NCBI GenBank assembly: GCA_903813345.2
Contig: CAIIXF020000011.1
Location: 15,359,754-15,423,753, forward strand
DNA from: Owenia fusiformis
Lineage: Eukaryota > Annelida > Polychaeta > Sabellida > Oweniidae
DNA length: 64,000 bases
Reading direction: 5' to 3'
Below are positions 14,927 through 53,900 of this stretch, one piece after another. Every line of letters begins with the position of its first letter. Positions within the stretch are counted from its first letter, which is position 1. Made by a program: the position numbers and the translations under genes. The notes below the pieces were generated by a model, which saw only the letters and a list, made by a program, of their open reading frames with translations, did no database searches and was not told the origin of the DNA.

Positions 14927-14993
14927 ATGGAGAAAAGAATGGATTCAAGAGGATTGCTTCTGGCGACGATCTTTGTCGCCATTATCAGAAACG
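14927..14993 (+). CDS. Exon 1: signal peptide
   Basis: This exon encodes 22 residues plus one base (phase 1 donor AACG|GTATGT). After a short basic start (MEKRMDSR) comes the hydrophobic core [12 protein letters not shown]. With exon 2 the likely signal-peptidase site follows NGLA. The ATG at 14,927 is preferred to 14,939 because it is first in frame after the acceptor, but either Met would leave a working signal peptide. It is the only signal-peptide exon found, which supports a single gene. Confidence 0.8.
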
Positions 14994-17900: not shown

Positions 17901-20900
17901 TAAACCCAAAGGAAAAAATACTCAAATTGTAAAAACAAGTCAAAGAACCATACCTGGTATATGAGATAAAAAAAAGAAAACATATGCCAAGGGTGTCAAA
18001 ACATTAATTTGACGACATGGCATCTGTCATCCCATTGTCATTCAATCTAAAAATGTAAATCTTGGTGCGATGTTTTGGTAAAGTTGGTGTGAAAAGAATG
18101 TAGAAGAGATGTGTTCAGTGCATATAAACTTTGCGGACGTAATACGTACATGCACATATACTTAGTTATTCTCTTTGACGATATTTTAGAATACAATGTG
18201 AAATACGACAGGGTTTTGACGGAAAGTTTTACATAAACGTGGTCATATTTGGATACAAATACACACTGGTTGTTTCTCAGTTCAGCTTGTTAATATCCTA
18301 CATATCAAAAATGTCGATTCGTGAAGTTAGCGGTCCCTAAAGTAAACTTTCTAACTCATTGTCATTTGTTCCTAATTGTCTTGTGAAAATCGACATGCAG
18401 ATGAATAGTGAACTAGCCTAATGATCAATTCTTCCCAAATAAAACTGTTACCATTTTCTTATCGTCTTAAGCATCATTTTTCATGATCGCATCAATTCAT
18501 GTTTCAATAGAGTCGATTTTATCAATTTTATTCAAATGAAAAACAAAGGGGAAGTTAAAAATTGAGAAAAACGATAGGTTTTATTGGTTCATGTTGACAA
18601 AGTGATGCACATCAAAAAGAAAAAGCTTGCAGTCCAAATCCATTTGCGATTTTAAAGGACAGTTAAGTACCATGAGGAACGTTCTTGGTTTTTTGAAAAT
18701 GATGCATTCTAATTTGAATAGCTTGACACATTAATCAGGGGGTCAAGGTGTGAAAATCGACATGTTTGAGACGGACCCTAATTTCAATTTGAAAATTCGC
18801 CTATTTTTCCTTGGAGTTTACTTTAATGCCTTGGGTAACGAATGTACAAATGTTTGAAGATATATACTATATATCTATTTGAAAAAAAACATTTTAGGAT
18901 TTTTTTCACTTTTTAACAAAATTAATTTTACACTTAAGTGGTTTTGAGTGTACTAAGTATGGGATAATGTACTATACGTCCTTTAGCCTGGATCGTCTAC
19001 CCTATTAGGTAATTGCTGCCTCACCTATTAGCTGTTGTCTCACCTTTTAATTGTTACCTCACCTATTAGCTGTTGCCTCACCTTTTAATTGTTACCTCAC
19101 CTATTAGCTGTTGCCTCACCTTTTAATTGTTACCTCACCTATTAGCTGTTGCCTCACCTTTTAATTGTTGAATTGAAATCCATGGTTTATAAAAAAGATT
19201 GTATTTATCGTACATAGTATTATTTTTTCTCCAGGTTTGGCTGAACAAGCTAATGACTGTAAAGATGACGCGGGGAACGATTGCAAAGGTATGCACAATA
19301 AATTGATGTTAATAATTGTTCTCGTAAATATATTCTTAAGTGGGTTTGGTTTGCAGAAGGGGGGTGGCATCATTGTAACTCGTCGGGATTTCTGATGTTC
19401 ACCTTTTTTACTGCGCTTTCCTGATATTTTGAAAATTAGTGTCTACTTTTGTTGTGGTCTATTTCCATTATCTAGTTCTTGGAGTCGGTCACTCATTTTT
19501 CTAATTTTCCTGTATCTCATTATTCTTTTATCTCGTCTCATGGGTTTGGGTATTATTATCAATACACTTTTAGTAAAAATAAAAATGGAATATTATGTGA
19601 AAAATGCAAATATTGTTTTTATGTAATTTCCCTTTTCCTACCATTATTTAAAACAGTTCATGGTTTGAGTCCCTGTTTTATAGTGGAGTGTCCAACACCA
19701 TCAAGCTACATTCCCCATGAGACAGATTGCAGTCGTTTCTACCAGTGTTCTAACAATAAACCACATCTAATGCAATGTGGGCCAGGAACTCATTTCAACC
19801 CGAGGTTAAATGTATGTGACTGGCCGGCTAATGCAGGCTGCGTTGTTGGCAATCCATCACTAGATGATACAGTGATGGTAACTGAAGAACACAATCCTGC
19901 CAAACTTCGGCTTCGAAGAAGCGGTTCCTCGTCAAGTGGTTCTTCCTCAAAAGGTTCCTCTTCGAGTGGTTCCGATGAAAGTGAAGAATGCGAAGAATAT
20001 TACTATAACCCCAAGGAGTGTAAAGAGAAGTGTGGTAAGGGGAAAGAGAAGGATATTTGCAAGGACTTTTGTAAACAAGAAGGGAAGAGCAAAGAGAAGA
20101 ATTGCGAGAAGGACTGTGAAAGTGACTGGAAATCGAAAAGCAAAAGTTGCGAGAAGAACTGTCAGAACACCAGTGGAAAGATGTGTAAATCAACCATGAA
20201 AAGTGGCAGTAAATCAGGGAAAAATGGTTCCTCTAAGAGTGGTTCCAGTGGAAGTGGTTCCAATGGCAGTGGGTCAACCATTGGAAGCGGTGGTAAATCA
20301 GGCAAAAGTGGTTCCTCTAAGAGTGGTTCCAGTGGAAGTGGTTCCAATGGCAGTGGGTCCTCTTCAAGTGGTTCGGATGAAAGTGCAGAATGCGAGGAAT
20401 ATTATTATAACCTTAATGAGTGTAAGAACAGCTGTGGAAAGGGGAAAAGTTGCGAGAAAACCTGTCAGAACACTAGTGGAAAGATGTGTAAAACAACCAA
20501 AGAAAGTGGACCAGAGGCAGACGAAGTGGTAGCGGAAGTTGACATAGTTGACGGTGAGTATTCTAGTTCACAAATGTAAAAAGTTGCCCTGTGTTTAAAG
20601 TCCCCGATAAATCGGGCTACGTATACCGCCGTGTTTACATTAGGGAATTAGAAGAGTTTATTTTTTATTTAGGTATGCAAGCTACGTATATCAATATTAG
20701 GCCTTCATTCATGTACTCGTGTGCATGTAATCAGCATGCCCTTCAATATTATGTAAACCAGGCTATTCAAGTATAATGTACACTATTTATGTGTGTACTA
20801 CATACAATACAATTCCCTGGGAAACAAAACACAAATACGTTTTATATGTTCAAAATGAGCCATTTGATTGATGCAAACACTAAATAGCTTTATAAATAAC

Positions 20901-23900: not shown

Positions 23901-26900
23901 ACAATAGGTCGAAAATCGATGATGAATTTCTGGAAATCGTCATTCCAATGTAAACCAATGTTTATGTTTATCAGGATATCTATTCAGTAAAAGATTCAAT
24001 ATCAATACAATTTTCTCTGTCATGATGTATCGTTTCCACGTTTGATTAATGTTTACTCCAATAAATTACAATTTTAAGCGTTCCATTTGTTAAGGTTCGC
24101 CGACGATTTCAGGAAGTAATCCCCTCATATGTTGTGCATATAGACACTTAGTTTTTTGAGAAGTTATTCCAACGATCCTCAATTATTTATTACCGAACAT
24201 TTTATCAAGAATATAAATGTTTTGTAAGAAATCGCTGTGTATGTGATGCAGTGTGCGATGTGTATCCATTCCCATTATTGCGATATAAAATATACGATAT
24301 TGGAAATATGATGTGAATATACGTTTGTGTTCCTGAGGTTCCAGATACATAACGTGCAGCAAAATATAGCGTATTTTGGGAGGGGATAGTGCATGACACC
24401 TGATTATACAAATACCAAATATGCTAGAATATGAGAAATTTATCCAAATGCATGCACTGTTCCACATCTAGTTACTTTGACGGAACGTCAATGTAACCAA
24501 ATGGATGAACTTCCTGGATACGAGTTTTTTGTTTTCTCGATTTAAACTTACCTATAAGTTATGTTTTGGATTATCATTTGGCACAAAGTTAGACGTTATA
24601 GTCTAGCTTTAAGAAATCCCCTCGGTTCGGAATTTGATTTTTAAATAAAGCTAGAATTCATGCATTTAGACCATCGCTTTTGTTACATTGACGTAAGTCG
24701 TCAAAGTAACATACATTGGTAACATAACGGACTTACAAATTGAGGAAACTTATTGAAACTAGACTATATTTTCGGTTCGGAATTTGATTTTTAAATAAAG
24801 CTAGAATTCATGCATTTAGACCATCGCTTTTGTTACATTGACGTAAGTCGTCAAAGTAACATACATTGGTAACATAACGGACTTACAAATTGAGGAAACT
24901 TATTGAAACTAGACTATATTTTCTAGCTTTGTGCCAAATTATAATCTGCAGCTTGACTTATAAGTAGGTTTAAATCGTGAAAACAGAAAACTCGTAAAGA
25001 GGAAGTTCATCCATTTTGTTACATTGACGTTCCGTCAAATTAACTAGTTGTGGAACAGTGAATACCATCTAAACCATTTTTACATTTGGCATACCAATAA
25101 CAGAGTGTTTTCTATTTTATCCTTTAAAATCATACGAAATTCAATTTGTAAGATTAGTATTATTGAGGTTAAAGAGAGAATTAGAGACAGCGAGCAGTGC
25201 AGGCTAAACAAAAAAAATTCAATTTTAGAATATTTCTGCCTCATGTCATTCCTTGTCATGTCTATTTTCTAAAAATTCTCAAAGTGAACACTTTGTTTCA
25301 GGAAAACTAGATATTTTTACAATAACATATTATTTTTCTATTAGAATGGTTACCATTCTTATTATTTGGGAGAATTTAAACATTTTTCACCCATTTTTGC
25401 ACTTTGAATCCATGATAACTTCACCAATTTTAATATATCATGAATCTTTTGGGTGATATTGTATTTCAGAATGTTAGGAATAGATTGGTAGGTCAATTGT
25501 ACATATTGCTTACAATTTTGTCAGCCCTGTAGATCTGATTCTGCCTTTAATAAACAATATTAATTAAGAAATTTCAAATGTACACGTGTTCGATTGTCGG
25601 AAGACTAGAACTGAATAATTTTAATTTTAAACTCTTCATTCTAGATGAAGTGAAGGAGTGTGAGGAATATTGGAATACCAAAGGCGACAAGTGCAGAGAG
25701 GATTGTCAACAATTAGGAAATGGAAAAGGAAATGATAAAATGAGGCATATTTGCAAGGACAACTGTGAAAAAGACAAGTATTGCGAAAAGGACTGTGAAA
25801 ATACATGGAAACCCAGAGAAAAGGAATGCAATAATCTCTGCAAAAAGAAAGGGAAAGACAAAAAAGATTGTGAGGAAGAGTGTGAATACAATTATTGCGA
25901 GGAAGATTGTGAAAAATATAATGAAGAAAAGGATAAGCTCTGTTACACAACTGATGAAGACGTAGTAAAAAACGGAAGTAAGCATACAATAATAATATAC
26001 AGTAAAACCTAAATATCTGAACACCTTATTTGAGCATCTAATCTGATAATACACTTTTTCCTGTTCTCAAATTACACAGATACATGTTAATGAAACTTTG
26101 GAATGTGAACACCTGCTAATCTGAACACTTTTGGCTGGTTCCAGAGGCGTATGGATGAGACTGATTTTACTGTACAACTTATCGTATTACGTAATTAAAA
26201 TACATTTTATTCGCCGATTAACGTATGTCAAATTTGTCAACCATTCATATGTCTGATGTACAGGGTGGGCCGAAAAAACGATCATATTTCGAACTTTTTT
26301 GATTATGCATTGACAATTATTACTGGATTCCTCAATATTTTCATGGTCACTGATAATATTGTTTTATGTTGCAGGTCATTGTGGAGCAGACATCGTTGTC
26401 ATCATAGATACATCGTGTAGTGTGAAAAATAATGACAAAATTACCTCACGTCAATTTGTTGTTGACCTTATTGGAAAGATGGACATCGGCGACGGTCCAA
26501 GCCAAACACGAATTGGTGTAATGACATACAATAAGGGAATTACACATCAGTTCCATTTAAAGGACTTCAAGAATAAAGAAGATTTAGAAAAACGGGCGAA
26601 AAAGATTAAATTATCTGCAAAAGGATGCAGGTAAAGTATATTAAATTATTATCTCTTTATAATATTACTTCCCCGAAATTAATATCAACGATGGATGTTT
26701 TTTATATTGAAAAATATCATTGTCCCTCCCAATCCCTCTAGGAAATAATATTCACTTTCAAAATTCTATCCCGAAAACTTTATTCATCTCCAAGGAGTTT
26801 TCAAACATTGCTTTATGTTTCATTAAGTTGGTTTTGAACTAATGTGATTTGGGTCATGGATACCATTAAATCTGGTCGGGATTGAATGCATTGGTAAGTA

Positions 26901-29900
26901 ATCAATGCTTACGAGGTTCTTGGTAACTACGTTAGGGGAAATAAGGAGTGTCTAGGGAGTGGGATGGATATTTTCAGTATATATCCGACTATCGGCCGAA
27001 GTCTGAAAAATACAGACTGTATCTATCCCAGTCCGCCTCCGTAATTGAAAACTGATTTTATTTAAAGCCCCATGGTTTATATTGTATGTAGTCATGCCGT
27101 TTGTTATCAAAATGTGATGCGTGAAGCTTTTTTAAATATCAAAAAGTGGTATTTTAAAGTCAGAAAAATCGTGAATTAATTTGATACTTACGGAGTGGTC
27201 ACACGCATCTTTTTATACTTCACACCAATACATAGCATTCATAATGTTTGTTTTTTTAGAAAAAAATGAGAAAATTGGTTGATAAATAGGCAAGAAATGA
27301 ACTCACCCATGTATGAACGTGGTTCATAGAAAAATGCTTTCAAATATTCCCGTTCCCATAGAAACATATCGTTAAATGTATTTTTTATTTCAACCTTGTT
27401 GACGGTTTATGAAATGCATTTAAAAATTCTCGTTCCCATAGAAACCAATCGTAAAATATATTTTTGTTTTCAACCTTGTTAATCAACCTCGACGTTTTAT
27501 TTTTGAAGTTGAGCATATTTAAAAAGATTGGCTTAGAGAAGTTTTTAAGTATACTTAAGGAATAAAGAATCATATATCATTCTATATTGGAAATATAAAT
27601 GCAAGATTATATGTACTAACCCATCTCTATAATGTACGAAGGCATTATCATGATGGGTTAAGTATGGGTGTTAGGTTACAATTGATAATCGTTTGAAAAC
27701 TATTGCCAAGGTTTTGTTTGTCAAAATAATAATGGAAATGAAAATATTAATTGTATGCAGAAAAATTGTGTAAATATATAAGCACAAATGCTAAAGGGAA
27801 GGGTGACTAAAAAGTTTAAAGAAATCCAACAAGAAAAGCAAACTGTAAGTGTAAATCTGTCATAAGAAAAGTAGACCCTATATATCCCAAAACCATAATC
27901 TAACGTGAAAAGAAACAATGTCTAACATCCCCCTCCCCCCTCCAATCGAGAACCAATATCACAATCCAGGACCAGAACACCAAGGGACATTTCATTCATA
28001 CTGAAGTCATTACAATACATGTTGAAACTTAGTTGGAAAATCATTGCATTGACTCAAATGAACACACAGATGACATGCTGTATCAAAAATTAAATGCACA
28101 GCAAACTCATTTTCATGCATATATCAATAAATCAACACACTGAAATGCTTTAGCCTGATTGGCTGAGACACACTTGGCATGTTTGAATTTGGGTTATGTT
28201 CATGTAGGACCCATACACACAAGGCCTTGGAGGAAATGCGAAAGACATACTTCACTGAGAAAAATGGAGATCGACCAGGTGTTCCGAATATCGCCGTTCT
28301 CATGACTGACGGTGGCACCTATGAACATAAATATGTTCCTGACACTCTAAGCGAGGCCAGTACATCAAGGAACTTAGGTATAAGTCAAATCGCTCACAAC
28401 TGAACAAGGAGGATTTGCTCCCAGAGTGCAACATCAATATTCTGTCCCACATATGGAAATGTCGTAATTCAAAATTTTGATTCAAACAGCCGCCATTTTG
28501 TTCACTTCAACATTTGAATCGTGAATTTTGGTCTTATTCCTAAACGGAGAATTCCCAAACTCACATGAAATGATCAAGATATTGGTTCAAATCTTTTGGA
28601 CTGTTTATTTTGAATTTATAGTCAGTAATAATTTCAGAAAATAACGACATTTCAACGTTTTAATTGTTGGAAAATATCGATTGTCGATCCTGGGAGCCAG
28701 TCCACCTCGCACCTGAAGTTCTGAACACACTCAAAATTTGTTTTTAGCGTACTTTTTAATTTTATATACGTTTTTCATTCTAAGACCTGCTGTTTCTCCA
28801 AATAAAAATAGTAAATGCATAGATTAAGGCTAAATTAAAACAAATTCGTTCAGCAAGAGCGTATTCTGATGACAACGTTCACTATTCTGATTACTGCGTA
28901 TTCTCATGTCACTGCATGTTGATGTACTAAAATGCAGCATCTCAATGCTGATGTTCAGTATAAAGGACCATGTGTGGTATGGCAAGTGATTTTAGACGGT
29001 CATATATTTCACCACGAGTACTTTCTGGCCATATCGGTGATTTAATTAAAACAAAATATTTTCATTCGAGAAAAGTCCTGAAGAAATTTTTTCTGCACTG
29101 TATTAACAATTCCTGAAAAGGGGATAGTTTTTGAAATGCGCAAAAGCTAAAAACATGTTATTTTTCGTTGGGAAAACTCATGATATCCATGATTGTTTTT
29201 AGCATAATTTTGGTCATCGAAAATTGATATCTTCAAAACTATTAGACCCCTTGTTGAATAATCTTTTCATGCCGCAAAAATTAGAAAAAGAATATCCTCT
29301 TTTGAGTAAATGGGGTCCCTATTTATAATTTTTTCGATTTATATTTACATCATCATGGGGACTTCACACAAAAGAAAACATATTGTTTTAATAAAAATCA
29401 CTGTATTTATGCCAAGGAAGTACTTATGGCGAAAAGATATTGCTATCTAAAATCACTTGCCATACATCACATGGACCTTTGTGAGTAAATAAACCAAGAA
29501 AAAAAGGCGTTTATGCAGTTTTATTTTGTTTTCAAAGGAATTGAACTGTTTGTTGTTGGTCTTCCAACAAAGAGCAAGAACAAAGTCACCAGTATGACAG
29601 AATGGATGGGGATCGCAAGTAAACCAAAGGATAGACATTTTTACCCTATGGATTCGTTTAGTGAATTGACATCCATTCTTCAAGGTTTCTCGACATCCCT
29701 GTGTGAATTTGAAGGTATGAGCTTAAAACCTATACGTTAGTAAAGAATATGAGGACTTCTTTTCAAGTATAACGTCAATATTAGTCTTTGTTATGCATAA
29801 CATTTTCAACTTGCTACAATTACGGTTGTTAAAGTTGTGATTGTTATAGTTACATGTGCTATTGCAACCATAAGAACTATAAGTATCTTAGATTCATTTT

Positions 29901-32900
29901 TAGATTCATTTTTAGCTTGGAATAGTTAATGTATATGAGGGCCATACATATCCTGGCTTATCTTTTGAATCTTTTTGAGGCTTTACATTTAAAAATTTAA
30001 ATTGTTACTCACGGGTTACATCATTGATGACACCAACATTAGTTCTTGAAAAGATTGATTTTGCAAAAGTAAAATTCACTGAACATAAACTTAAATCAAT
30101 CTCCTTGTACTGTAAGGGATTGGTATTGGTAATGTTAACTTCAAAACAAAAATCGAGTCACATAGCCATTTCTTTGAATGTGTGTATTATAGTGATTGAT
30201 GATAACAGTACAACTGGTGAAAGTGAAGTAGAGGAATTCGAATGCGATGTATTCTGGGTAGCAAAGGGCAAGAGCTGCAATGAGAATTGCCAATCACAAT
30301 CGAAAGGGACATGGAAGAAGAGCTGCAAGGAATGGTGTCAGAATGACAAGAATTGCGCAAAGGAATGTGAAAAAGATTGGGCAAAAGATAAAGACAAGCA
30401 TTGCGATAAGGACTGTGGCAAATACAGTGAAAGAAGCAAGACGTGTAAGGTATCCTTGGAAGAAGAGACGGGACAAGAGGATGATGAACCACCCCCAGAT
30501 GGTGAGTGTTTTCCACTTTAGAATGGGAAAGTTTAATTTATATCTAGTGACACATAATTTGCAAATAGCAATGTTCAATAAGACGAATGAGGATTATCAT
30601 CATTCTTATTAGTCAATGTACCTGCGATTGCATCAAATTGATCAAAAGTCAACAATCCATGTTTGAAAGTGGCATTTGCAAGCTGACGAAATCAATTGAT
30701 AGAAATGTCAATGTAATATCGTACATAGTGCTCGTGATAACATGTTTCAAAGATCTTCATTGCATCTTACTAGCTAAAGAAAACAATGCATTTTTACATA
30801 TTGCAATTACTTCCCTCTTTCAAACTATGACTTGATCATCTTTGTAAAAGTCGATTCCAAATGAAAAATCAATATGAGATGCATCATCAATAAACATCAT
30901 TATTGTTAAAATGAATGTGCTTTTGTCATTTATTAAACATTCATACGTGTATCATTCTGATTACGTACCATTATAGGCATACTTGATGTTTGATTCATTT
31001 TTGACTTTGTATATGTTTCAAATGTTATATAATGGAGTTTCCCAGTAGTGATGATGTCTCACAATTTGCTACATTACCTTTGCTATTATAGAATACATGA
31101 AGTTAATTTTTGGATCTTCTTTTAGATTTTTGTCCAGAACCGTCAAGCTACGTTCCCCATGATACAGACTGTTCGCTTTACTACCAGTGCGTTGAATCAA
31201 TTCCAAGTTTAATGGAATGTGGGCCGGGTACTCATTTCAACACCAAGTTGAATATATGTGACTTGCCCGAAAGTGCAGGTTGCATTGTCATTGAAGTAAC
31301 AGAGCCTGAAGAAAAAAGTGGGTCTTCAGACGGTGAGTATTATAGGTCACGAATGTCAGTATATGGCTTTGAAAGATCATAATGTTGAAATGGTGTATCC
31401 TATCATTTTAAATGTATACTCGAAGACATAACAGCCCATTTTTAAATATTCAATCAAACTTTTTGTTTTGCATGTCAAATTATACTAAGCTTAAACTCCA
31501 GTAGTTATCAGAATTAAAACAACATGAAAGTTATTTTCAAAACAATATTTCATGTTTTTGACTCCTCTGGAGTAATCAATATCAATCGTTAGAGAATTTG
31601 CATCACACGAGTTAGTTCGACATTGTCTTCTCGAAACAGTTACATCATTCACTGAAACATCGGGATGGTATCTCAGTCCAGTTGTGGGTCTTGTATACTT
31701 ATAGTCAAATATCTAATATCATAGAGAATTCTAGAACTCTTGATATATTGCATAACGCTTATTGAGGGAAATCTCGATCTGAATTGTGCTAAGAATTCCT
31801 GCTAACTTTACAATTAACTTTTTCAGCAAAAATAACTTCTAAAAATTGACAGGTACACTTGAATTTTGACCAATCTACATAGAATATGGACCTGTAAACT
31901 TGTCAACTTTGTATATTTGGTCTCTATCTATGTTTACATGTCGCACGAAACTGGGGACAATTAGCGCAACATTATGGCGTCAAAATACCAATGAAGCAAA
32001 ACAATTGTATGGTGCAAATAGCCTTCTAACGTTAATTAAGTGTTATATTTTTGTCAAGTCTAGTCAACTTAAAAATGCTTTATCCGTATTCAATCCAAAT
32101 AAGATTCACCGAGTAACAGGATTTCGGGGACAGCATTTCTTAAATGTTTTTATTCATGAAAAAGATCAGAAAATTTACTCGAAGCGTTTGTAAAAGTTGA
32201 TATACATAGAATTTGAGGTGAAGAATGGATGCGTTACATTTTTATAAAGTCCTGTTAATCAGCTCTTATTTCATCCCCTGGTATGAGTGTGGACAATTTT
32301 TTAAGCTCTGATGAAATGAGTGGACAAAGCCCAGCAAAATGGAGGTCTTGGAGGGAAGGCATGGTTATATTTTATATTTGAACACTTTGTAATGCCGATA
32401 TTTGGTCAAATGTTTGGATGGTGTGTCAATGAACACCTATAGCTTCAATGAAACCCTAAACATGGTCAACTTATATTGTAATTATTATGAAATTGAAAAT
32501 TAAATGCGACTTTACAAAAGATTTGAGATAATTTTCGGTATTTTTTGGAATTCTCCTTCTTCCCTAGTGTTTAAGGCAAGTAAAGAGCTCTTAGGAACGT
32601 CCCATGATGCTACCTGTAATAACCCATCGCTTATATTCCCAAATATATGTAACTGTTGGAATTTATGAGTGATTTGTCGATATTTTTCGCGTATGGACAA
32701 TGTTTGGATGTAAACATATGCTAGTGCATCCATATATAAATCATACATCTCAGCAGCAGTGATTCTACGAAAGGTCCTTACATCGAGGGCTGGTATTTTG
32801 ACACACAATTAGGATACAATATATTCATATTTAGGGATGAGGACGCACAGATAATGTTTCGCATACTTTTAAAATTCCTTTTACTTTTCTATATAATTCT

Positions 32901-38900: not shown

Positions 38901-41900
38901 TGAGTTTCAAACTTTATAATAGGATTTCATAATGTATACCTCATTAACCTCTCCGTCCACCTTTAGTTTAACTAAATAAAACTAGGATCCCAAGCAGTAA
39001 CGGTGACTCACAATTACACTTACACTACCTTTGTTGTTTACAGAATATAAGCATTTCGGATTTTCTTTTCAGACTTTTGCCCAGAACCGTCAAGCTACAT
39101 TCCCCATGAAACAGATTGTTCTCTTTACTACCAGTGCATTGATTCTGTACCAAGTTTGATGGACTGTGGGCCGGGTACTCATTTCAACACCAAGTTGAAT
39201 ATATGTGACTGGCCTGAGAGTGCAGGTTGCATTTTCAGTGAAGTAACAGAGCCTGAAGAAAAAAGTGAGTCCTCCTCAAGTGGTTCCAATGGCAGTGGGT
39301 CCTCTTCAAGTGGTTCGGATGAAAGTGAGGAATGCAAGGAATATCATTATAACCTTAATGAGTGTAAGAAGAGCTGTGAGAAGGGAAATGCTAAATCAAA
39401 TGCCAAAAGCTGCGAGAAGACCTGTCAGAACACCAGTGGAAAGATGTGTAAATCAACCATGAAAAGTGGCAGTAAATCAGGCAAAAGTGGTTCCTCTAAG
39501 AGTGGTTCTAGTGGAAGTGGTTCCGACGGCAGTGTGTCAACCATTGGAAGCGATGGTAAATCAGGCAAAAGCGGTTCATCTAAGAGTGGTTCCAGTGGAA
39601 GTGGTTTAAACGGCAGTGGGTCCTCTTCAAGTGGTTCGGATGAAATTGAGGAATGCAAGGAATATCATTATAACCTTAATGAGTGTAAGAAGAGCTGTGG
39701 AAAGGGAAATGCGAAATCAAATGCCAAAAGTTGCGAGAAGAACTGTCAGAACACTAGTGGCAAGATGTGTAAAACTATCAAAGAAAGTGGGACCGAGGCA
39801 GTCGAAGTGGTAGAGGAAGATGCTACAATTGATGGTGGGTATTATTGCTCAAGAATATCAAAAAATTATCCTTAAAAGATCATAATTTAAAATGGTGTAT
39901 TGTTTCCATAATGATTATTTTGAAAGCAGACATCCTTTTTCAAGCCGTCATTACTTTCATTACCTAATGATTTGTATTCCTCCAAGTCTAAAGCATGATC
40001 AACAATGAAATACATTCAGTCAGAGCGGGCATGGGTTATGTGTCTACTGTAAAAGCACATGTGATATTGGATGTTTGAGACACTGTTTATAGCCTACTAG
40101 ATGGATTATACCTGATTTCTAGGAGGGGATAGATCTTTAGGGGACAATAAGGGGTCCTATTTTTCATAAAAAAAGTCCTGCTCAATTAAAAGCCTTTGCA
40201 GGCCCGGGGGCTACACAATGAGAAGTGATGGTTGCTATTGAAATAAACATTATTTTATTCCTTATGATCGGAAAAATGAATGAGGAAGCTGATTTCTGGA
40301 AGAAAAATTCAACAAAACTGCACGATTTATTTTTCTAAGAGAATGTTTACCAATAAGTCCTTAAATATATAGGTGTATGTTATATGTGATACACTTCTTA
40401 TCACATGTTAATCTGTTTATTACTCATTTTGAATATTTATCCCCCTTAAAAAAATTGACCATAGTTCATTCATGGAATTCTTGAAACTCACTTGAATTTT
40501 TAAAGAAATCCAGCTTTTTGACAGATGAGCTACAGACTTTCAGTGTTATTGTAAAATTTATCTTGAAAAAATAAATCTTGACTCTTTGAATTTTCTAGCA
40601 GAAAGTGACTTCTCCCCCTCCACCTCCTTTCTTTTTATTTTCCGATGGTAGGGGCCCTTGAGAAAAAAGCCATGGTAACCATGGTATTCCATGGTGCGCC
40701 CATGGTAATCCATGGTTTTCCATGGAAATTCATGGTTTTCCATGTTATTTTCCATGGAAATTCATGGACGCCCATGGTAATCTTCCATGGATATTTACCA
40801 TGATTTTCCGTGGTAATTGTTGGTTTGGTAATTGGTTTTTAATGGATGTGTCATGGAGATGTAAAATCAACAATTTTGGTAGGATTTGTATTTACCAAAA
40901 TCTCCAAAATGAATGTTTTGATGATATATCCCAGTTAGACTGAGACTTATCATTGAGAAAAAAGGGTGGACATTTCATTTTGAATGTATAGCAAGAACAT
41001 TCATCGAATGTTAGACTCAGCTTACAAATGAGAAAATATGTGAAACAGCAGAGCAGAGAGTAGGCCACAAGATTTCAAAAACAATTGTGCAAAGGTCTTT
41101 TGTGTAGATCAAGACTAGATAGAGATTGCTTATTTTTTAGGCCAAACACTTCTTTCCTTTGAAAAAGATTAAGTCAAACTAGCCCAAGCTCTGTTTTATT
41201 TCAATACTTTCTTTAATTTTCAGTTTTAAAAATCAATATGAAGTAATTTAAGAAATAAATAACTCATTTTCTTAAATTACATTTCGTACATTTGAGAATA
41301 CAATCAAAAACCATGGTTTCTTTCTTTGAAGTTGAGAAAAACTGCAATCAAAAGCCATGGAAGACGGTTGATTGCAATCGAAAGCCATGCTTTTCCATGG
41401 TTATTTCTTTGATGTTTTGGAAAGTGCAATCAAAAGCCATGGTTTTCCATGATTATTCTTTTGATCTTTTGAAAGTCCATGGTTTTCCATGGGCTATTTG
41501 TTTGGTCTTTTGGAAGCAGAAAAATGAATAATACATTATGTTTCTAAATGAACTTCTCCAAATTAAGTCCCATTCAACTTTTATAAGCATATTATCTGAA
41601 AAAATCCACAGAAAAGTATATACTTTTACAGAATTTTGACTTGAAATTGAGATGGGGGATTAAACACAAGCCTATGGCTGCAAACTGAAATGTTATACCT
41701 AAGTGATAAAAATTCAATTTGTCTATGTAAGAATATTATATTTAAAAAGAAGTTGCATGAAGGAAGGGGAGGGGGTTAACAACACCATTTGGCTTAAAAC
41801 ATGAAACATAGTATAAGTAATTAAAATTGATTTGTCTTTGAATAGGAATAAATAATCATTTGCATAAATATTTGGTTGCCATTATTCTATGTTAATTAGG

Positions 41901-44900
41901 TGTCTTAACTCTCAAATTAATGTCAAAAGATTAATCTCTTTACAACAGATTATAAGAGTTCATTTGCATAATTCTTAAATATTCTGATCTTAATTGTTAT
42001 TATATATGATAATCTTACTCTTTCTAATGCTCCCTCTTCAGTAATTATTATTGTCTGTGAGTGTAGACAGTGCAAGTCAAAAACTCATTGTTGATCAAAT
42101 AAAACCAAATAGGATTTACTCCAAGTAAAAATGTTTATTCAGTCTGCAATAAGGGAATCCAATGAGCTGATTTTATCACTTATTTTGTCTTTTTTTACAT
42201 AAGTGCCAAAGTTAAATGATAGCAAATCCCAGCAAACAAATTATTACTTTTAATTGTGGGGTCAAATCATCAATTAAAAAAATATTAAGTAAACAGTTCT
42301 TTGTCATATGACACTATGTACAGAATGTACTAAACATATATTCAGATTGTAAAAACATGGATGTATTTCAGGCCTGAAACCAGATTTTGTGAAGAAGGTT
42401 GACTTTCTCAAAGATTTTGGGGTGGGGGGGGTGTCATATTCTTTTATCTATGATTAATGAGACTAATTCTCAATCCAGCTTGGATTCATTTGTTAAAATA
42501 TTGATTCAATTTTGAAGATTTTGGTAAAAACAAAACCTGCCAAAATTGTTGATTTTACAACTCAAGTGTCATGGTAAAAACATGGCATGTTCATGAAAAA
42601 ACAATTACCAAACCACCAATTACCACGGAAAATCATGGTAAATATCCATGGAAGATTACCATGGGTATCCATGAATTTCCATGGAAAATACCATGAAAAA
42701 CCATGAATTTCCATGGAAAACCATGGATTACCATGGACGCACCATGGAATACCATGGTTACCATGGCTTTTTTCCTAAGGGGGGTTTCCTTAAAAAGATC
42801 CGGACGTCCAAAAGCACAATTAGAGTAACCCCTCTGGTATTTTTGTGTTATATTATGTAAAACAAGTATTTTTATCGACTCACCAATGTTGGGGCTTCAG
42901 ACAATTCGTTAACGGTATCAATTTGATGATTGTTCTCAGCTAGCCAGAAATTCATCCTGCATCAACTTTTAATGTTCGAAACAAAATTGAAATAGCCCGC
43001 TTCAATGTGCTCCGAATCTTCCGATCTGTGATTGGCTGCCTGGGCTCAATATCCCGGCAACCGATTGTATTTGCCAAGACTGACGACGGGAAGTTCGATG
43101 CCCAATAAAACATCGTTATTTATTAAATCTGATAAAAAATCTTCCGAAAATATACATTTCAACAATAACAGTCATATATATTGATCATTTTGAAATAAAA
43201 GAAGCGCACTTATATAACTTTTTCAATTATTAAAATTGCTGTAAAATTTGGAAAGTTATATGCAGTGATTGGTTGCGGAGTGGGTAGCGCGTCGGACTTC
43301 TCCCCTTAAGTTTTGTCCAAAAGGTTGGGCTTCGATTCCCGGCTTGGGCAATTTGTTTTTCCTTTTTTTCATCACAACACATTTTTATCCTTTGGGAATG
43401 TTATTTCAATCATTTTACAATATAAATTCATCTTAAAAACTGTATGTTGTTTTAGACTTATTGTGTTCTAAACATTTGGTTGTTCTTTGGTTCTCCTGTT
43501 GATTTTCTCATGATATGGTCTCAAAATATATCTAAGGCATATATGATGTTATATGAGCAGTTATATTAGGACATAACTGGTTGTCCGGGAGAAAGATCCG
43601 GACGATCTAATCCATTTAACGTTCTTTAAACAGAGACCGAGCACACAGAGTTTACAGGCCCCTACTCGATGTAGAGTGGTTAAATTCAAGGAGGCAAATG
43701 TTCCCCAAGAATGTTTAAAGTAAATTTAATTGAAGATGTGACCAGTTGGTCCCGAGCGTTAAAAAGTTAATCATTTGGTAAGTTTTAATGAAATCTTAAT
43801 GCAATAAACGTTAACATCTCGGGAACTTTACAACTGAATTTTTTCTAATTAATCATTATAGAAGAAGTGAGGAAGTGCGAGGAATATTTGAATATGGAAG
43901 GCGAGAAGTGCAGGGAGGATTGTAAACAAAATGGAAATGGAAAAGGGAATGATAAAATGAGGCATATTTGCAAGGACAACTGCGAGAAAGACAAGGATTG
44001 CGAAAAGGACTGTGAAGATACATGGAAGTCTAGAGAAAAGGAATGCAAAGATCTCTGCAAACAGAAAGGGAAAGACAAAAATGATTGTGAAGAAGAATGT
44101 GAATACAATTATTGCGAGGAAGATTGTGAAATATATAATGAAGAAAAGGATAAGATTTGTTACACAACTGATGAAGACGTAGTAGGAAACGGAAGTAAGC
44201 ATATTCTTATGTGGTAGTGATATTCATAGAATTCTAGGATACAAGAAGCAATGATAGCTAGACGAGATTAAGTTAAAAATTTAGAAATAAAAGATTATAG
44301 AAATAATGAAATTATTCTGCAACTTTAAAAGCTGCTTTTCAAAAAATTGTATCGCCTTTCTTGCTTAAGGAAAATATAAGGAGAACTTACATTGTTTGAT
44401 ACATGAACAGAAATTCCAACGTTTCAATCAGTTCATGACATTTGGTTCCTATCTTCTCTTTTAATGAGAATACAGTGCGTATAAAAAACGCAAAAGATTG
44501 TTATCTCGGGAAAGCATAAAACAAGTGATAACAATATTTTGATTTCATTCAATGTACCATGAAGCCATGTGTCTCCTCTTTACAATGGTATATCATTCGT
44601 TGATATTGGGTCATGATTGGGCGAGTAATCATTCCTTTTGCAAAGTAGGCCACAAATAGGTTGGGACCAATTTATAAACATCGCAAAAGTCAGTGTACGG
44701 GGTGCAATGCAATATTGGAAGGAAACATTAAACCAATGATGACTGCATCCTTTTCATTCAATGTACTAAAAAGCCCAAAATCTTCTTCTTTGCAATGGAA
44801 TGTCATTCATTCACGGAGAGTCGAATAAGCATTCATTTCGCAAAGTGGGGCAAAATTCAGCTTGAACCCAAGTCTCAAACATTGCAAAAGACATGCATGG

Positions 44901-47900
44901 GGCATAAAGGCTATTGAAAAAAGATGTGACAGTTGTGGCATAGACAGTTCAGTGTTCATACTCATACTCTTGCAAGAATACATCCTATCTCCTCCAAATT
45001 GTCAACACATAAAGATGCGTTCGTCTTTCCACGTCATGCATGGTTCAGCCCTGAGTCATCAGTAGGTTAAAGCAGAGAAAAGCAGCCCATTGGCAATTCT
45101 TTCTCGAAGTTTTGCAATATCTGGTGGAGGAATTGTGAGCACAGATGCTCCTGAGATAGCTCCAAAAGAAAAGGTCACAACAATTCAAGTCAGAAGAGCT
45201 TTCATTTGCACTTAGCCCTTGCACTGATTTTTGCAATATCTGAAACTTGGCCCAGGGCCTATTTGACCCACTGTGCAAATGGAAGGAATTTTCACCCAAC
45301 CATGACCAGACCACATGTGAATGAATGTCATATCATTGCAAAGAGGAGAGACGTGGCTTTAATCGTACATTGGATGAAATTGATGTAGTCATCACTAGTT
45401 TTGTGATTTTACTAGATAACTACTTGTAGCATTTTTTGATACGCCCTGTATATGAGAGTGTCCCATTTTTGCCCATCCTGTATATTGTCTGATGGGGTAA
45501 TATAGGATATAATGATATACGTATAACCTTATGTTGCAGGTTATTGTGGAGCAGACATTGTTGTCATCATAGATACATCGTGTAGTGTGAAACATTCTGA
45601 CAGAATTATTGCTCGTCAATTTGTTGTTGACCTTATTGGAAAGATGGACATCGGCGATGGCCCAAGCCAAACACAAATTGGTGTAATGACATACAATAAG
45701 GGAGTCACACATCAGTTCTATTTAAATGAATTCAAGACCCAAGCAGAATTAGAAAAACAGGCGAAAAAGATTAGTTTAAATGCAAAGGGATGCAGGTAAA
45801 GTATAAAACGAAAAGCGTGAACATTATTAAGCCAAAGTAAAATACCCTTTCTGTATGAATGATCACAACGGATAATTAGAAATATGACTATTTAAAATTC
45901 CTAAATTGACATTTATCTCATGCATGATTTTGTGTAGGATCTATCCAACGACAGACTCCATTGTGATTTAAAATGTTAATGTTGAACATTTGTTGTAAAC
46001 GAACGTAATTGAAAGTATATATGCAATTGATATGCTATACAATTGGTATAATTTTACGCACATGTAGGACCCATACACACACGGCATTGCAGAAAATGCG
46101 ATCGGCATACTTTACTGAGAAAAATGGAGATCGACAGGGTGTTCCTAATATCGGCATTCTAATGACTGACGGTGGCACCTATGAAAAGCAATACAGATCA
46201 AATACTCAAAGCGAGGCCATTGAATCCAGGCAAACAGGTATGTCATGATTCAAATCAAATTTCTTTAATCTGAACACAATCAAATAGTCCTATAAGATAC
46301 AATGCCATTTATATTCGTTTTTCGTCTAATTAAGGGATTGCTTTACCAAAAACTGCACCAATATACCATAGTAGCAAATATATGAGATGAATTCCTTTTA
46401 GGCTTGATCAAAATTGAAACGATGTTATAGATTTGTGAGCAAATCAATGAATAAAAATGACGTTTTGTTTTGTTTTTAAAGGCATTGAAATGTTTGTCGT
46501 TGGCCTACCAGCCAGGAGCAAGAACAAACTCAGAAGTATGACAGAGTGGATGGGGATCGCAAGTCAACCTAAAGCTAGACATTTTTACCCTATGGATTCA
46601 TTTAGTGATTTAACGTCCATTCTTCAGGGCTTCTCAACATCTCTGTGTGAATTTGAAGGTTGGTGAAACGCTAAATCTTCATTTTATGAAAGGTGGCAGT
46701 TTATCAGACTACATCCAAAGATTATATATTGCATGAAACTATCAACTATTTTAACTTCCTTTTACATGATTTTAATAAATATTCAAAATAAATACAAATA
46801 AATCATTTGAGGGAAACAAAGAACAACTAATGTAACCTAACCCGCATATTTACGTTTTTGAATGTTTGTTTCACAGTGGTTGAGGATAGCAGTACAATTG
46901 TAGAAGATGAATCGGAGGAATTCGAATGCGATGTATTCTGGGCAGCGAAGGGCAAGAGTTGCAACGAGAACTGTAAGAAACAAGGGAAAGGCACGTGGAA
47001 GCAGACTTGTAAGAAATGGTGTCAGAATGACAAAAATTGCAATAAGGAATGTGAAAATGATTGGGCTAAAGACAAAGACAAATATTGCGGAAAGGACTGT
47101 GGCAAATACAGTGAAAGAAGCAAGACGTGTAAGTTATCCTTGGAAGAAGAGACAGACGAAGAGGAAGATGAACCACCCCCGGATGGTGAGTGTACATTTA
47201 CCAATTTATAATTTGAAAGTTTTGTCTATTATGACTAGTGACACATATAGGCTGCACAATTCGCAATATCCTCATTCAAATTGACTTTCTTGTATATTGC
47301 GTGTATAATTATCGTAATGTTTCATAAATTTGAATACTGTTTCATATGTGTATTTCATTTGAGTTTCGAACGTAATAATAGAATTCCATACTATATACCC
47401 CATATACACTTCCGTCCATACATTTTCCTGAACCGATATAGAGTTAACACACATTGGCAGTCACAACCCACCACCACTAGCCATAAGTTAGATGCATACA
47501 TATACTATCAATATGTAAAGTTATTATTGAATCTTCATTTTTGTCACTAAAACAACTTTATAAACTTGTTTAAGTGTCAGTTGATGGATAATTTATGCAT
47601 CATAGCTTGACAAAAAAGTATCTTACTAACTAAATTAAACTAGGATCCCAAGCAGTAACGATGACTCAAGGATCACGATTACACTTACACTACCTTTGTT
47701 GTTTACAGAATATAAGCATTTCGGATCTTCTTTTCAGACTTTTGCCCAGAACCGTCAAGCTACATTCCCCATGAAACAGATTGTTCTCTTTACTACCAGT
47801 GCATTGATTCTGTACCAAGTTTGATGGATTGTGGACCGGGTACTCATTTCAACACCAAGTTGAATATATGTGACTGGCCTGAGAGTGCAGGTTGCATTTT

Positions 47901-50900
47901 CATTGAGGTAACAGAGCCTAAAGAAAAACGTCTACCTCAAAGTGGTTCCAACGGCAGTGGGTCAACCATTGGAAGCGGTGGTAAATCAGGCAAAAGCGGT
48001 TCATCTAAGAGTGGTTCCAGTGGAAGTGGCTCCAACGGCAGTGGGCCCTCTTCAAGTGGTTCGGATGAAAGTGAGGAATGCAGTGAATATCATTATAACC
48101 TTAATGAGTGTAAGAAGAGCTGTGGAAAGGGAAATGCGAAATCAAATGCCAAAAGCTGCGAAAAGACCTGTCATAACACCAGTGGAAAGATGTGTAAATC
48201 AACCATAAAAAGTGGCAGTAAATCAGGCAAAAGTGGTTCCTCTAAGAGTGGTTCCAGTGGAAGTGGTTCCGACGGCAGTGGGTCAACCATTCGAAGCAGT
48301 GTTAAATCAGGCAAAAGCGGTTCATCTAAGAGTGGTTCCAGTGGAAGTGGTTCCAACGGCAGTGGGTCAACCATTGGAAGCAGTGGTAAATCAGGAAAAA
48401 GTGGTTCCTCTAAGAGTGGTTCCAGCGATGGGGGGTCTGATGGAGGAGATACTGATGAAGAAATAGACAATGGAGCAGTGATATGTCCAACACCATCAAG
48501 TTACATCCCGCATGAGACAGACTGCAGCCGTTTCTACCAGTGTTCTAACAATAAACCACATTTAAGGCAATGTGGACCAGGTACTCATTTCAATTCAAGA
48601 TTAAATGTATGTGACTGGCCTAAGAATGCAGGCTGCGTTGTTAGCAATCCATCTCTAGATGCAACAGACACTGAAACAGTCAAAGATCAGTCTACAAAGA
48701 GTGAGAAGTCTGCAAAAAGTGGTTCCAGTGGAAGTGGTTCCAACGGCAGTGGGTCAACCATTGGAAGCGGTGGTAAATCAGGCAAAATCGGTTCATCTAA
48801 GAGTGGTTCCAGTGGAAGTGGTTCCAACGGCAGTGGGTCCTCTTCAAGTGGTTCGGATGAAAGTGAGGAATGCAGTGAATATCATTATAACCTAAATGAG
48901 TGTAAGAAGAGCTGTGGAAAGGGAAATGCGAAATCAAATGCCAAAAGCTGCGAGAAGACCTGTCAGAACACCAGTGGAAAGATGTGTAAATCAACCATGA
49001 AAAGTGGCAGTAAATCAGGCAAAAGTGGTTCCTCTAAGAGTGGTTCCAGTGGAAGTGGTTCCGACGGCAGTGGGTCAACCATTGGAAGCGGTGGTAAATC
49101 AGGCAAAAGCGGTTCATCTAAGAGTGGTTCCAGTGGAAGTGGTTCCAACGGCAGTGGGTCAATCATTGGAAGCAGTGGTAAATCAGGAAAAAGTGGTTTC
49201 TCTAAGAGTGGTTCCAGCGGTGGGGGGTCTGATGGAGGAGATACTGATGAAGAAATAGACAATGGAGCAGTGATATGTCCAACACCATCAAGTTACATCC
49301 CACATGAGACAGACTGCAGCCGTTTCTACCAGTGTTCTAACAATAAACCACATTTAATGCAATGTGGACCAGGTACTCATTTCAATTCAAGATTAAATGT
49401 ATGTGACTGGCCTGAGAATGCAGGCTGCGTTGTTATCAATCCATCTCTAGATGCAACAGACACTGAAACAGTCAAAGATCAGTCTACAAAGAGTGAGAAG
49501 TCTGCAAAAAGTGGTTCCAGTGGAAGTGGTTCAAACGGCAGTGGGTCAACCATTGGAAGCGGTGGTAAATCAGGCAAAATCGGTTCATCTAAGAGTGGTT
49601 CCAGTGGAAGTGGTTCCAACGGCAGTGGGTCCTCTTCAAGTGGTTCGGATGAAAGTGAGGAATGCAGTGAATATCATTATAACCTTAATGAGTGTAAGAA
49701 GAGCTGTGGAAAGGGAAATGCGAAATCAAATGCAAAAAGCTGTGAGAAGACCTGTCATAACACCAGTGGAAAGATGTGTAAATCAACCATGAAAAGTGGC
49801 AGTAAATCAGGCAAAAGTGGTTCCTCTAAGAGTGGTTCCAGTGGAAGTGGTTCCAACGGCAGTGGGTCAAACATTGGAAGCGGTGGTAAATCAGGCAAAA
49901 ACGGTTCATCTAAGAGTGGTTCCAGTGGAAGTGGTTCCAACGGCAGTGGGTCAACCATTGGAAGCGGTGGTAAATCAGGAAAAAGTGGTTCCTCTAAGAG
50001 TGGTTCCAGCGGTGGGGGGTCTGATGGAGGAGATACTGATGAAGAAATAGAAAACGGAGCAGTGATATGTCCAACACCATCAAGTTACATCCCGCATGAG
50101 ACAGACTGCAGCCTTTTCTACCAGTGTTCTAACAATAAACCACATTTAATGCAATGTGGACCAGGTACTCATTTCAATTCAAGATTAAATATATGTGACT
50201 GGCCTGAGAATGCAGGCTGCGTTGTTATCAATCCATCTCTCGATGGAACAGACACGGACACAGACGAAGATCAGTCTACAACGAGTAAGAAGTCTGCCAA
50301 AAGTGGTTCCAGTGGAAATGGTTCAAACGGCAGTGGGTCAACCATTGGAAGCGGTGGTAAATCAGGCAAAGGCAGTTCATATAAGAGTGGTTCCAGTGGA
50401 ATTGGTTCCAACGGCAGTGGGTCCTCTTCAAGTGGTTCGGATGAAAGTGAGGAATGCAGTGAATATCATTATAACCTTAATGAGTGTAAGAAGAGCTGTG
50501 GAAAGGGAAATGCGAAATCAAATGCCAAAAGCTGCGAGAAGACCTGTCATAACACCAGTGGAAAGATGTGTAAATCAACCATAAAAAGTGGAAGTAAATC
50601 AGGCAAAAGTGGTTCCTCTAAGAGTTTTTCCAGTGGAAGTGGTTCCGACGGCAGTGGGTCAACCATTGGAAGCGGTGGTAAATCAGGCAAAAGCGGTTCA
50701 TCTAAGAGTGGTTCCAGTGGAAGTGGTTCCGATGGCAGTGGATCAACCATTGGAAGCGGTGGTAAATCAGGCAAAAGCGTTTCATCTAAGAGTGGTTCCA
50801 GTGGAAGTGGTTCCAACGGCAGTGGGTCAACCATTGGAAGCGATGGTAAATCAGGCAAAAGTGGCTCATCTAAGAGTGGTTCCAGTGGAAGTGGTTCCGA

Positions 50901-53900
50901 CGGCAGTGGGTCAACCATTGGAAGCGGTGGTAAATCAGGCAAAAGTGGTGCATCTAAGAGTGGTTCCAGTGGAAGTGATTCAAACGGTAGTGGGTCAACC
51001 ATTGGAAGCGGTGGTAAATCAGGCAAAAGTGGTTCACCTAAGAGTGGTTCCAGTGGAAGTGGTTCCAACGGCAGTGGGTCAACCATTGGAAGTGGTGGTA
51101 AATCAGGCAAAAGCAGTTCATCTAAGAGTGGTTCCAGTGGAAGTGGTTCCGACGGCAGTGGGTCAACCATTGGAAGCGGTGGTAAATCTGGCAAAAGTGG
51201 TTCATCTAAGAGTGGTTCCATTGGAAGTGGTTCCAACGGCAGTGGGTCAACCATTGGAAGCATTGGTAAATCAGGCAAAAGCGGTTCATCAAACAGTGGT
51301 CCCAGTGGAAGTGGTTCCAACGGCAGTGGGTCAACCATTGGAAGCGGTGGTAAATCTGGCAAAAGTGGTTCATCTAAGAGTGGTCCCAGTGGAAGTGGTT
51401 CCAACAGCAGTGGATCAACCATTGGAAGCGGTGGTAAATCAGGCAAAAGTGGTTCACTTAAGAGTGGTTCCAGTGGAAGTGGTTCCAACGGCAGTGGGTC
51501 AAACATTGGAAGCGGTGGTAAATCAGGCAAAAGCGGTTCATCTAAGAGTGATTCCAGTGGAAGTGGTTCCAACGGCAGTGGGTCAACCATTGGAAGCGGT
51601 GGTAAATCAGGCAAAAGTGGTTCATCTAAGAGTGATTCTAGTGGAAGTGGTTCCAACGGCAGTGGGTCAACCATTGGAAGCGTTGGTAAATCAGTCAAAA
51701 GTGGTTCATCTAAGAGTGGTTCTAGTGGAAGTGGTTCCAACGGCAGTGGGTCAACCATTGGAAGCGGTGGTAAATCAGGAAAAAGTGGTTCCTCTAAGAG
51801 TGGTTCCAGCGGTGGGGGGTCTGATGGAGGAGATACTGATGAAGTAATAGACAATGGAGCAGTGATATGTCCAACACCATCAAGTTACATCCCGCATGAG
51901 ACAGACTGCAGCCGTTTCTACCAGTGTTCTAACAATAAACCACATTTAATGCAATGTGGACCAGGTACTCATTTCAATTCAAGATTAAATGTATGTGACT
52001 GGCCCGAGAATGCAGGCTGCGTTGTTATCAATCCATCTCTCGATGGAACAGACACGGACACAGACGAGGATCAGTCTACAACGAGTAAGAAATCTGCAAA
52101 AAGTGGTTCCAGTGGAAGTGGTTCAAACGGCAGTGGGTCAACCATTGGAAGCGGTGGTAAATCAGGCAAAGGCAGTTCATCTAAGAGTGGTTCCAGTGGA
52201 AGTGGTTCCAACGGCAGTGGGTCCTCTTCAAGTGGTTCCGATGAAAGTGAGGAATGCAAGGAATATCATTATAACCTTAATGAGTGTAAGAAGAGCTGTG
52301 GAAAGGGAAATGCGAAATCAAATGCCAAAAGCTGCGAGAAGATCTGTCATAACACAAGTGGAAAGATGTGTAAATCAACCATGAAAAGTGGCAGTAAATC
52401 AGGCAAAAGTGGTTCCTCTAAGAGTGGTTCCAGTGGAAATGGTTCCGACGGCAGTGGGTCAACCATTGTTAGCGGTGGTAAATCAGGCAAAAGCGGTTCA
52501 TCTAAGAGTGGTTCCAGTGGAATTGGTTCCGATGGCAGTGGGTCAACCATTGGAAGTGGTGGTAAATCAGGCAAAAGCGGTTCATTTAAGAGTGGTTCCA
52601 GTGGAAGTGGTTCCAACGGCAGTGGGTCAACCATTGAAAGCGTTGGTAAATCAGGCAAAAGTGGTACACTTAAGAGTGCTTCCAGTGGAAGTGGTTCCGA
52701 CGGCAGTGGGTCAACCATTGGAAGCGGTAGTAAATCAGGCAAAAGCGGTTCATCTAAGAGTGGTTCCAGTGGAAGTGGTTCCGACAGCAGTGGGTCAACC
52801 ATTGGAAGCGGTGGTAAATCAGGCAAAAGCGGTTCATCTAAGAGTGGTTCCAGTGGAAGTGGTTCCAACGGCAGTGGGTCAACCATTGGAAGCGTTAGTA
52901 AATCAGGCAAAAGCGGTTCATCTCAGAGTGGTTCCAGTGAAAATGGTTCCGACGGCACTGGGTCAACCATTGGAAGCGGTGGTAAATCAGGCAAAAGTGG
53001 TTCACCTAAGAGTGGTTCCAGTGGAAGTGGTTCCAACGGCAGTGGGTCAACCATTGGAAGCGGTGGTAAATCAGGCAAAAGCGGTTCACCTAAGAGTGGT
53101 CCCAGTGGAAGTGGTTCCAACGGCAGTGGGTCAACCATTGGAAGCGGTGGTAAATCAGGCAAAAGCGGTTCACCTAAGAGTGGTCCCAGTGGAAGTGGTT
53201 CCAATGGCAGTGGGTCAACCATTGGAAGCGGTGGTAAATCAGGCAAAAGCGGTTCATCTAAGAGTGGTTCCAGTGGAAGTGGTTCCAACGGCAGTGGGTC
53301 AACCATTGAAAGCGGTGGTAAATCAGGCAAAAGCGGTTCATCTAAGAGTGGTTCCAGTGGAAGTGGTTCCAACGGCAGTGGGTCAACCATTGGAAGCGGT
53401 GGTAAATCAGGCAAAAGTGGTTCATCTAAGAGTGGTTCCAACGGCAGTTGGTCCTCCTCAAGTGAGTCTGATACAAATGAAGAGTACGACGAAAATGATG
53501 GATTAGATAACAATGAGGGAGATGATAATGAAGGATATAATGAAGATGGGGATAGCGATGGAGGAGATAATGATGAAGGAAATAATGATGGACAGCATTA
53601 TGAAGGTGGAGATAATGATGGAGACAACAACGATGATGAGGATAATGATGGAGACGATAAAAATGGTGGAGATGATGATGGAGATGATGACGATGACGGG
53701 GATAATGAAGAAGGAGATATTGAGGGAGATGATAATGATGGAGGAGATAATGAAGGTGGAGATAATGATGGAGGAGATAATGAAGGAGACGATAATGGAG
53801 GAGGAGATAATGAAGGAAATGATAACGATGGTGGGGATAACAGTGGAGTAGATAATGATGGAGATCAAAATGGAGGAAATAACGATGGAGGAGATAATGC

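Follow-up and report, generated by a model that had tools for sequence, protein, structure and literature searches.

The CHCH twin CX9C domain is a helical hairpin that is closed by nested disulphides. Another such form is the alpha-hairpinin, with two antiparallel helices and bonds Cys1–Cys4 and Cys2–Cys3. Its cysteines follow the motif C-X3-C-X4-20-C-X3-C (excerpt of PMC11591084). The same motif occurs in scorpion kappa-hefutoxins and cone-snail toxins, with bonds Cys1–Cys4 and Cys2–Cys3, although the review that describes them cautions that the cysteine pattern alone is insufficient for classification (excerpts of PMC7191063). Here, a window of 64,000 nucleotides from the annelid Owenia fusiformis (the whole stretch analysed, on contig CAIIXF020000011.1) is described, in which a predicted gene encodes 15 cysteine-rich domains, each built as a ladder of CxxxC pairs. 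Exons 2–25 of this gene (24 exons, 19235–61253) keep an open frame through to the stop, and the predicted protein reaches 5,792 residues and 25 exons once candidate exon 1 is counted; all exon borders are predictions, with splice sites picked by eye and by script (Table 1). It is somewhat likely, in our judgement, that the modules form a family of disulphide-stapled alpha-helical hairpins descended from a four-pair ancestor and lie in a giant matrix protein, either secreted or at the cell surface. In such a family, each CxxxC would lie on one helix and be bonded to a CxxxC on the antiparallel helix, and the opening and closing cysteines would seal the base of the hairpin; the modules would act as compact struts, charged and resistant to proteases, with flexible Ser/Gly/Lys linkers between them.

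Each of the 15 domains opens with one Cys and closes with another, and holds two, four or six CxxxC pairs in between; together they have 50 CxxxC motifs (3 × 6, 4 × 4 and 8 × 2) and 130 cysteines. A recount of every cysteine group reproduced exactly the family of 15 domains and 50 enclosed motifs claimed in an earlier sequence-only reading, whose start of 19990 located the first domain properly but missed its first base, 19989. The gap pattern is 9-3-(5 or 11)-3-7 in the two-pair domains, 9-3-8-3-10-3-10-3-7 in the four-pair domain of exon 3 (3a, which precedes a two-pair domain, 3b), 10-3-11-3-5-3-11-3-9 in the four-pair domains of the exon-8 type and 10-3-15-3-5-3-10-3-9-3-4-3-10 in the six-pair domains. 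Between successive pairs, 22 of the 35 gaps are 8–11 residues long and the remainder 4, 5 or 15, so the earlier wording that this spacing is "often 8–11" was fair. In composition the domains are very polar, with 15–18% Cys, 26–54% D/E/K/R and 11–18% A/I/L/M/F/V/W/Y. The copies are not independent, since they comprise only 12 distinct sequences and three types by cysteine spacing, and since 35270–38134 and 44441–47295 are 93.5% identical over 2.9 kb, introns included; these two segments are, to judge from that identity, a recent duplication of the part of a cassette that holds VWA and the four-pair domain. Five of the 15 copies (3a, exon 8, exon 4, 3b and 15b) were compared with chance by fixing the end cysteines and running 100,000 shuffles of the interior. 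Perfect ladders appeared in 0, 0, 0, 170 and 200 shuffles, respectively, and at least the observed number of pairs in 65, 55, 1, 4520 and 3344. Therefore, the larger ladders are very unlikely by chance, while a lone two-pair copy is not very rare. The ladder observation is confirmed as right and unusual.

As for the origin of the three pair numbers, the alignment of 3b with 3a contains a single in-frame gap of 99 bases, with 85 of 99 aligned bases identical, and this gap removes exactly the middle block (pairs 2–3). Blocks were compared using cysteine-fixed shuffles, 2000 for each comparison. The score of the 3a middle block against exons 4, 8 and 10 was reached by 0 of 2000 shuffles in each case; exon 8 against exon 4 was reached by 11 and exon 14 against exon 10 by 7. 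Since both the four-pair and the six-pair type have the middle block, and 3b cleanly lacks it, the four-pair form is the simplest ancestor. From it, the two-pair form would have arisen by losing the middle two pairs, which is how that form is best read, and the six-pair form by gaining two pairs ahead of the last one; the latter, a gain of pairs 4 and 5, is probable on softer evidence. For pairs 1, 2 and 6 of the six-pair type, the best counterparts in exon 8 are pairs 1, 2 and 4 (z 2.5, 2.2 and 3.1). Less favourable to this history are pair 3, which scores slightly higher with exon-8 pair 4 (z 3.1) than with pair 3 (2.6), pair 5, which resembles pair 3 (z 2.1), pair 4, which matches nothing well (z at most 1.0), and the last blocks of 3a, which compare poorly with exons 4 and 8 (201 and 133 of 2000 shuffles). 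Given these ambiguous matches of pairs 3, 4 and 5, it is uncertain which pairs were added.

The sequence-only reading had proposed growth in steps of a single hairpin. As it guessed, pairs seem to be gained and lost in twos, but the order from two to four to six is not supported, given the shared middle block and the gap in 3b, and a history of losses and gains that starts from a four-pair ancestor appears to fit better. If two pairs were ancestral after all, as that reading held, recombination with another module would have given 3a its middle block. Two-pair copies are indeed the commonest (8 of 15), and duplicated segments are present in the gene; we nevertheless think this course of events unlikely, as 3a and 3b otherwise align closely around one clean gap and the middle loop of the 3a block has 10 residues, against 5 in the other types, and therefore no recent donor of the block is visible in the window. 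Whatever their order of origin, the modules are clearly under purifying selection, to judge from the rates of nonsynonymous (dN) and synonymous (dS) change: cysteine exons compared within the sets 4/10/16 and 8/14/20 keep every one of their 14 or 10 cysteines, with dN/dS of about 0.07–0.41 (6 of 6 comparisons), dN is below dS in 12 of 12 exon comparisons with no aligned cysteine lost in those 12, and dN is likewise below dS in each of 21 comparisons between two-pair copies, seven of the eight being used and 3b excluded.

The fold was predicted with AlphaFold in two jobs, one for exon 3 with 3a and 3b and one for a six-pair copy, from which helix ranges and the per-residue confidence (predicted local distance difference test, pLDDT) were read, without coordinates. 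In 3a, helices are predicted at residues 21–27, 33–43 and 52–74, that is, at pairs 1, 2 and 3–4, with pLDDT blocks of 70–84 over residues 21–70 (moderate confidence); 3b, in the same job, has blocks of 42–54 (low), and the six-pair copy is mostly helix, with three long helices. The earlier claim of paired helices is weakly supported: helices are predicted in both jobs, with confidence moderate in 3a only and low elsewhere. A helical hairpin is a plausible reading of these models. Several results weigh against it. Both models are weak (mean pLDDT 53.2 for exon 3 and 46.5 for the six-pair copy; predicted template modelling score 0.27 and 0.31), their inputs being five and six sequences of a single gene, and Foldseek returned nothing at E ≤ 0.001 for either, with weak matches (E 7.9 and 9.3) for the exon-3 model and none for the six-pair model. 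A profile search of the PDB gave three matches, all of them vicilin hairpinins, at E 0.52–1.4, and the reversed profile also matches a vicilin hairpinin (E 0.27), as does one of two shuffled profiles with another (E 0.45), the other shuffle giving none. Because the control profiles score as well, the vicilin matches amount to a likeness of spacing and composition only, and homology to vicilin hairpinins was dropped. Of 147 pattern matches in GTDB (prokaryote) contigs and 25 in viral contigs, none was confirmed as a relative, such collections being unlikely sources. When a single six-pair copy was searched against the PDB, the best match was a zinc-finger protein (E 0.34), which was rejected. 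All 15 copies were without a Pfam match at E ≤ 10, in line with the earlier remark that no named domain has this ladder, and among the matches listed from the open-licence literature no such ladder is described in titles or abstract openings.

Compared with the alpha-hairpinins, all 15 domains contain the cysteine motif, with inter-pair gaps of 4–15 residues; the inner spacing, earlier likened to that of these peptides, lies within the published range of 4–20 (excerpt of PMC11591084). The polar, charged sequence is also similar, and so is the presence of several modules per precursor (excerpts of PMC7191063). However, alpha-hairpinins are short peptides with four, or six closely spaced, cysteines, whereas the modules here have 6, 10 or 14, with enclosing cysteines, four- and six-pair forms and a giant animal protein as host, and sequence kinship beyond the cysteine pattern was found neither by the PDB profile with its controls nor in Pfam. 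The kappa-hefutoxins and cone-snail toxins, to which the modules are likened by description, differ in being free peptides of 22–27 residues (excerpts of PMC7191063). The twin CX9C domain differs in spacing and in the secreted setting here, where there is no Pfam match of any kind.

How the pairs would be bonded divides the stapled-hairpin reading itself, and the exon-3 and six-pair models, taken at face value, disagree on which pairs could bond. One variant, differing in bond topology, takes pairs 1–2, 3–4 and 5–6 as bonded in independent, tandem units like alpha-hairpinins, as in plant vicilin leaders; we consider it a serious possibility, if rather short of likely. It agrees with the Gly in the loop after pair 1 of all 15 copies, as a hairpin turn might have, with the alignment of the three PDB hairpinins over that loop, though controls score alike, with the exon-8 gaps of 11-5-11, which suit two 11-residue turns and a short linker, and with the one Pro and one Asn in the exon-4 gap between pairs 3 and 4. 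That same gap lacks Gly, Pro and Asn in 3a and exons 8, 10 and 16 and has one Asn in exon 14, a single helix (52–74) carries both pair 3 and pair 4 in the 3a model, and a loss of pairs 2–3 with a probable gain of pairs 4–5 would be out of step with tandem pairing. Such a loss and gain would both spare the remaining bonds if the module were instead one long helical hairpin whose bonds are nested, the opening Cys joined to the closing Cys, pair 1 to the last pair and pair 2 to pair 3, like a telescoping ladder whose tip is trimmed or extended by whole units while the other bonds stay unbroken. In 3a, the partners of this scheme sum to 93–95 in model numbering, as an antiparallel hairpin requires. 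The six-pair model, itself of low confidence, has a single helix (30–67) for pairs 2, 3 and 4; a bond between pairs 2 and 3 would therefore be barred, which favours tandem units and weighs against the nested scheme, and we put the latter forward tentatively, as a doubtful proposal.

Mirror symmetry of the gaps was discarded as proof of nested bonds: it is too weak, since among the possible orders of the gaps exon 8 has 8 of 120 that are equally symmetric, but 3a has 104 of 120 and the six-pair type 3600 of 5040. A very improbable alternative is that the cysteines bind metal or form intermolecular, matrix-hardening bonds rather than bonds within the module. The strong polarity and high cysteine content would fit it, but the even cysteine counts and enclosing cysteines of every copy suit closed pairs, and the signal-like start and extracellular neighbour domains suit an oxidising route.

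The protein in which the stapled hairpins would lie resembles the Pif/BMSP shell matrix proteins in its setting, having VWA (PF00092 in 3 of 3 spliced regions) and CBM_14 domains and a long low-complexity acidic region, with VWA repeated as in bivalve BMSP (excerpts of PMC11291548, also for what follows on that family). CBM_14 lies downstream of VWA in 38 of 50 Pif/BMSP members; here it does so in exons 9, 15 and 21, and one copy also lies upstream of the first VWA, in exon 3. Laminin-G, which is usual in the family and absent from its PifG subfamily, had no match in pieces jointly covering exons 3–25. Unlike Pif/BMSP, the present protein has cysteine ladders between VWA and CBM_14, where one subfamily has Sushi repeats, as well as TSP_1, LDL-A and a hydrophobic end; the main text of that paper contains none of the words thrombospondin, LDL, cysteine and disulfide. 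A published pull-down assay with the VWA of Pif recovered other shell proteins.

The giant protein probably binds chitin. The chitin would be held by CBM_14, partner proteins by VWA, and calcium or mineral by the Asp-rich tail. By analogy, the protein would link chitin and partner proteins with calcium, the cysteine modules acting as stiff struts. The DxSxS motif is the metal site of VWA domains; those here start with D-T-S-C-S, which fits it. The hydrophobic stretch near the C-terminus (mean hydropathy up to 1.84 over 19 residues) may anchor the protein. If the stapled-hairpin reading holds, an animal matrix protein would independently use the stapled helical hairpin of plant defence peptides and venoms, a hairpin form that grows and shrinks in steps of two pairs would offer a natural scale of disulphide struts, and a further module would stand beside VWA and CBM_14 in Pif/BMSP-like proteins.

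Table 1. Predicted exons and cysteine domains of the gene (positions within the window).
Feature	Position	Strand	Content	Score
Candidate exon 1 and exon 2 (14939..19288)	14939–14993; 19235–19288	+	exon 1 signal-peptide-like
Exon 3	19684..20553	+	CBM_14, linker, domains 3a and 3b
Four-pair domain 3a (exon 3, first)	19989..20186	+
Two-pair domain 3b (exon 3, second)	20391..20489	+
Exon 4	25645..25977	+	phase 1-1, six-pair domain
Exons 5–7 (26375..29714)	26375–26630; 28208–28377; 29538–29714	+	VWA	PF00092 E 1.5e-34, spliced
Exon 8	30193..30501	+	phase 1-1, four-pair domain
Exon 9	31126..31332	+	CBM_14, without cysteine ladder
Exon 10	33756..34088	+	phase 1-1, six-pair domain
Exons 11–13 (36358..37480)	36358–36613; 36876–37045; 37304–37480	+	VWA	PF00092 E 3.5e-33, spliced
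Exon 14	37716..38024	+	phase 1-1, four-pair domain
Exon 15	39073..39834	+	CBM_14, then two two-pair domains
Exon 16	43862..44194	+	phase 1-1, six-pair domain
Exons 17–19 (45540..46658)	45540–45795; 46068–46237; 46482–46658	+	VWA	PF00092 E 1.9e-33, spliced
Exon 20	46877..47185	+	phase 1-1, four-pair domain
Exon 21 (11 kb)	47738..58747	+	five CBM_14 and two-pair units up to 52371, repeats
Exons 22 and 23 (59210..60044)	59210–59383; 59868–60044	+	two TSP_1 domains
Exon 24	60446–60643	+	LDL-A	23.5 bits, just below cut-off of 24.1
Exon 25	61117–61253	+	hydrophobic stretch, short polar tail, stop
Six-pair domains (exons 4, 10, 16)	25659–25943; 33770–34054; 43876–44160	+
Four-pair domains (exons 8, 14, 20)	30243–30446; 37766–37969; 46927–47130	+
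Two-pair domains, exon 15	39333–39449; 39654–39770	+
Two-pair domains, exon 21	48079–48195; 48871–48987; 49663–49779; 50455–50571; 52255–52371	+

The gene contains three cassettes, each composed of CBM_14, a six-pair exon, VWA over three exons and a four-pair exon. In exon 21, repeats of 84 bp encode the Ser/Gly/Lys linkers, and its tail is a 5-kb array (53494–58513) of about 167 copies of a 30-bp unit in one open frame, coding for Asp, Gly and Asn. The two TSP_1 domains, LDL-A and the hydrophobic end (59210–61253) lie in the same frame, beyond the region covered by the sequence-only reading. Scanning the window with Rfam (at the gathering threshold) and for tRNAs gave no match. A unit of 150 bases occurs in two copies at 24622–24923 with a 100% match, being either very young or an assembly effect, and a minisatellite with a unit of about 136 bases lies between predicted exons 3 and 4 (21800–23247).

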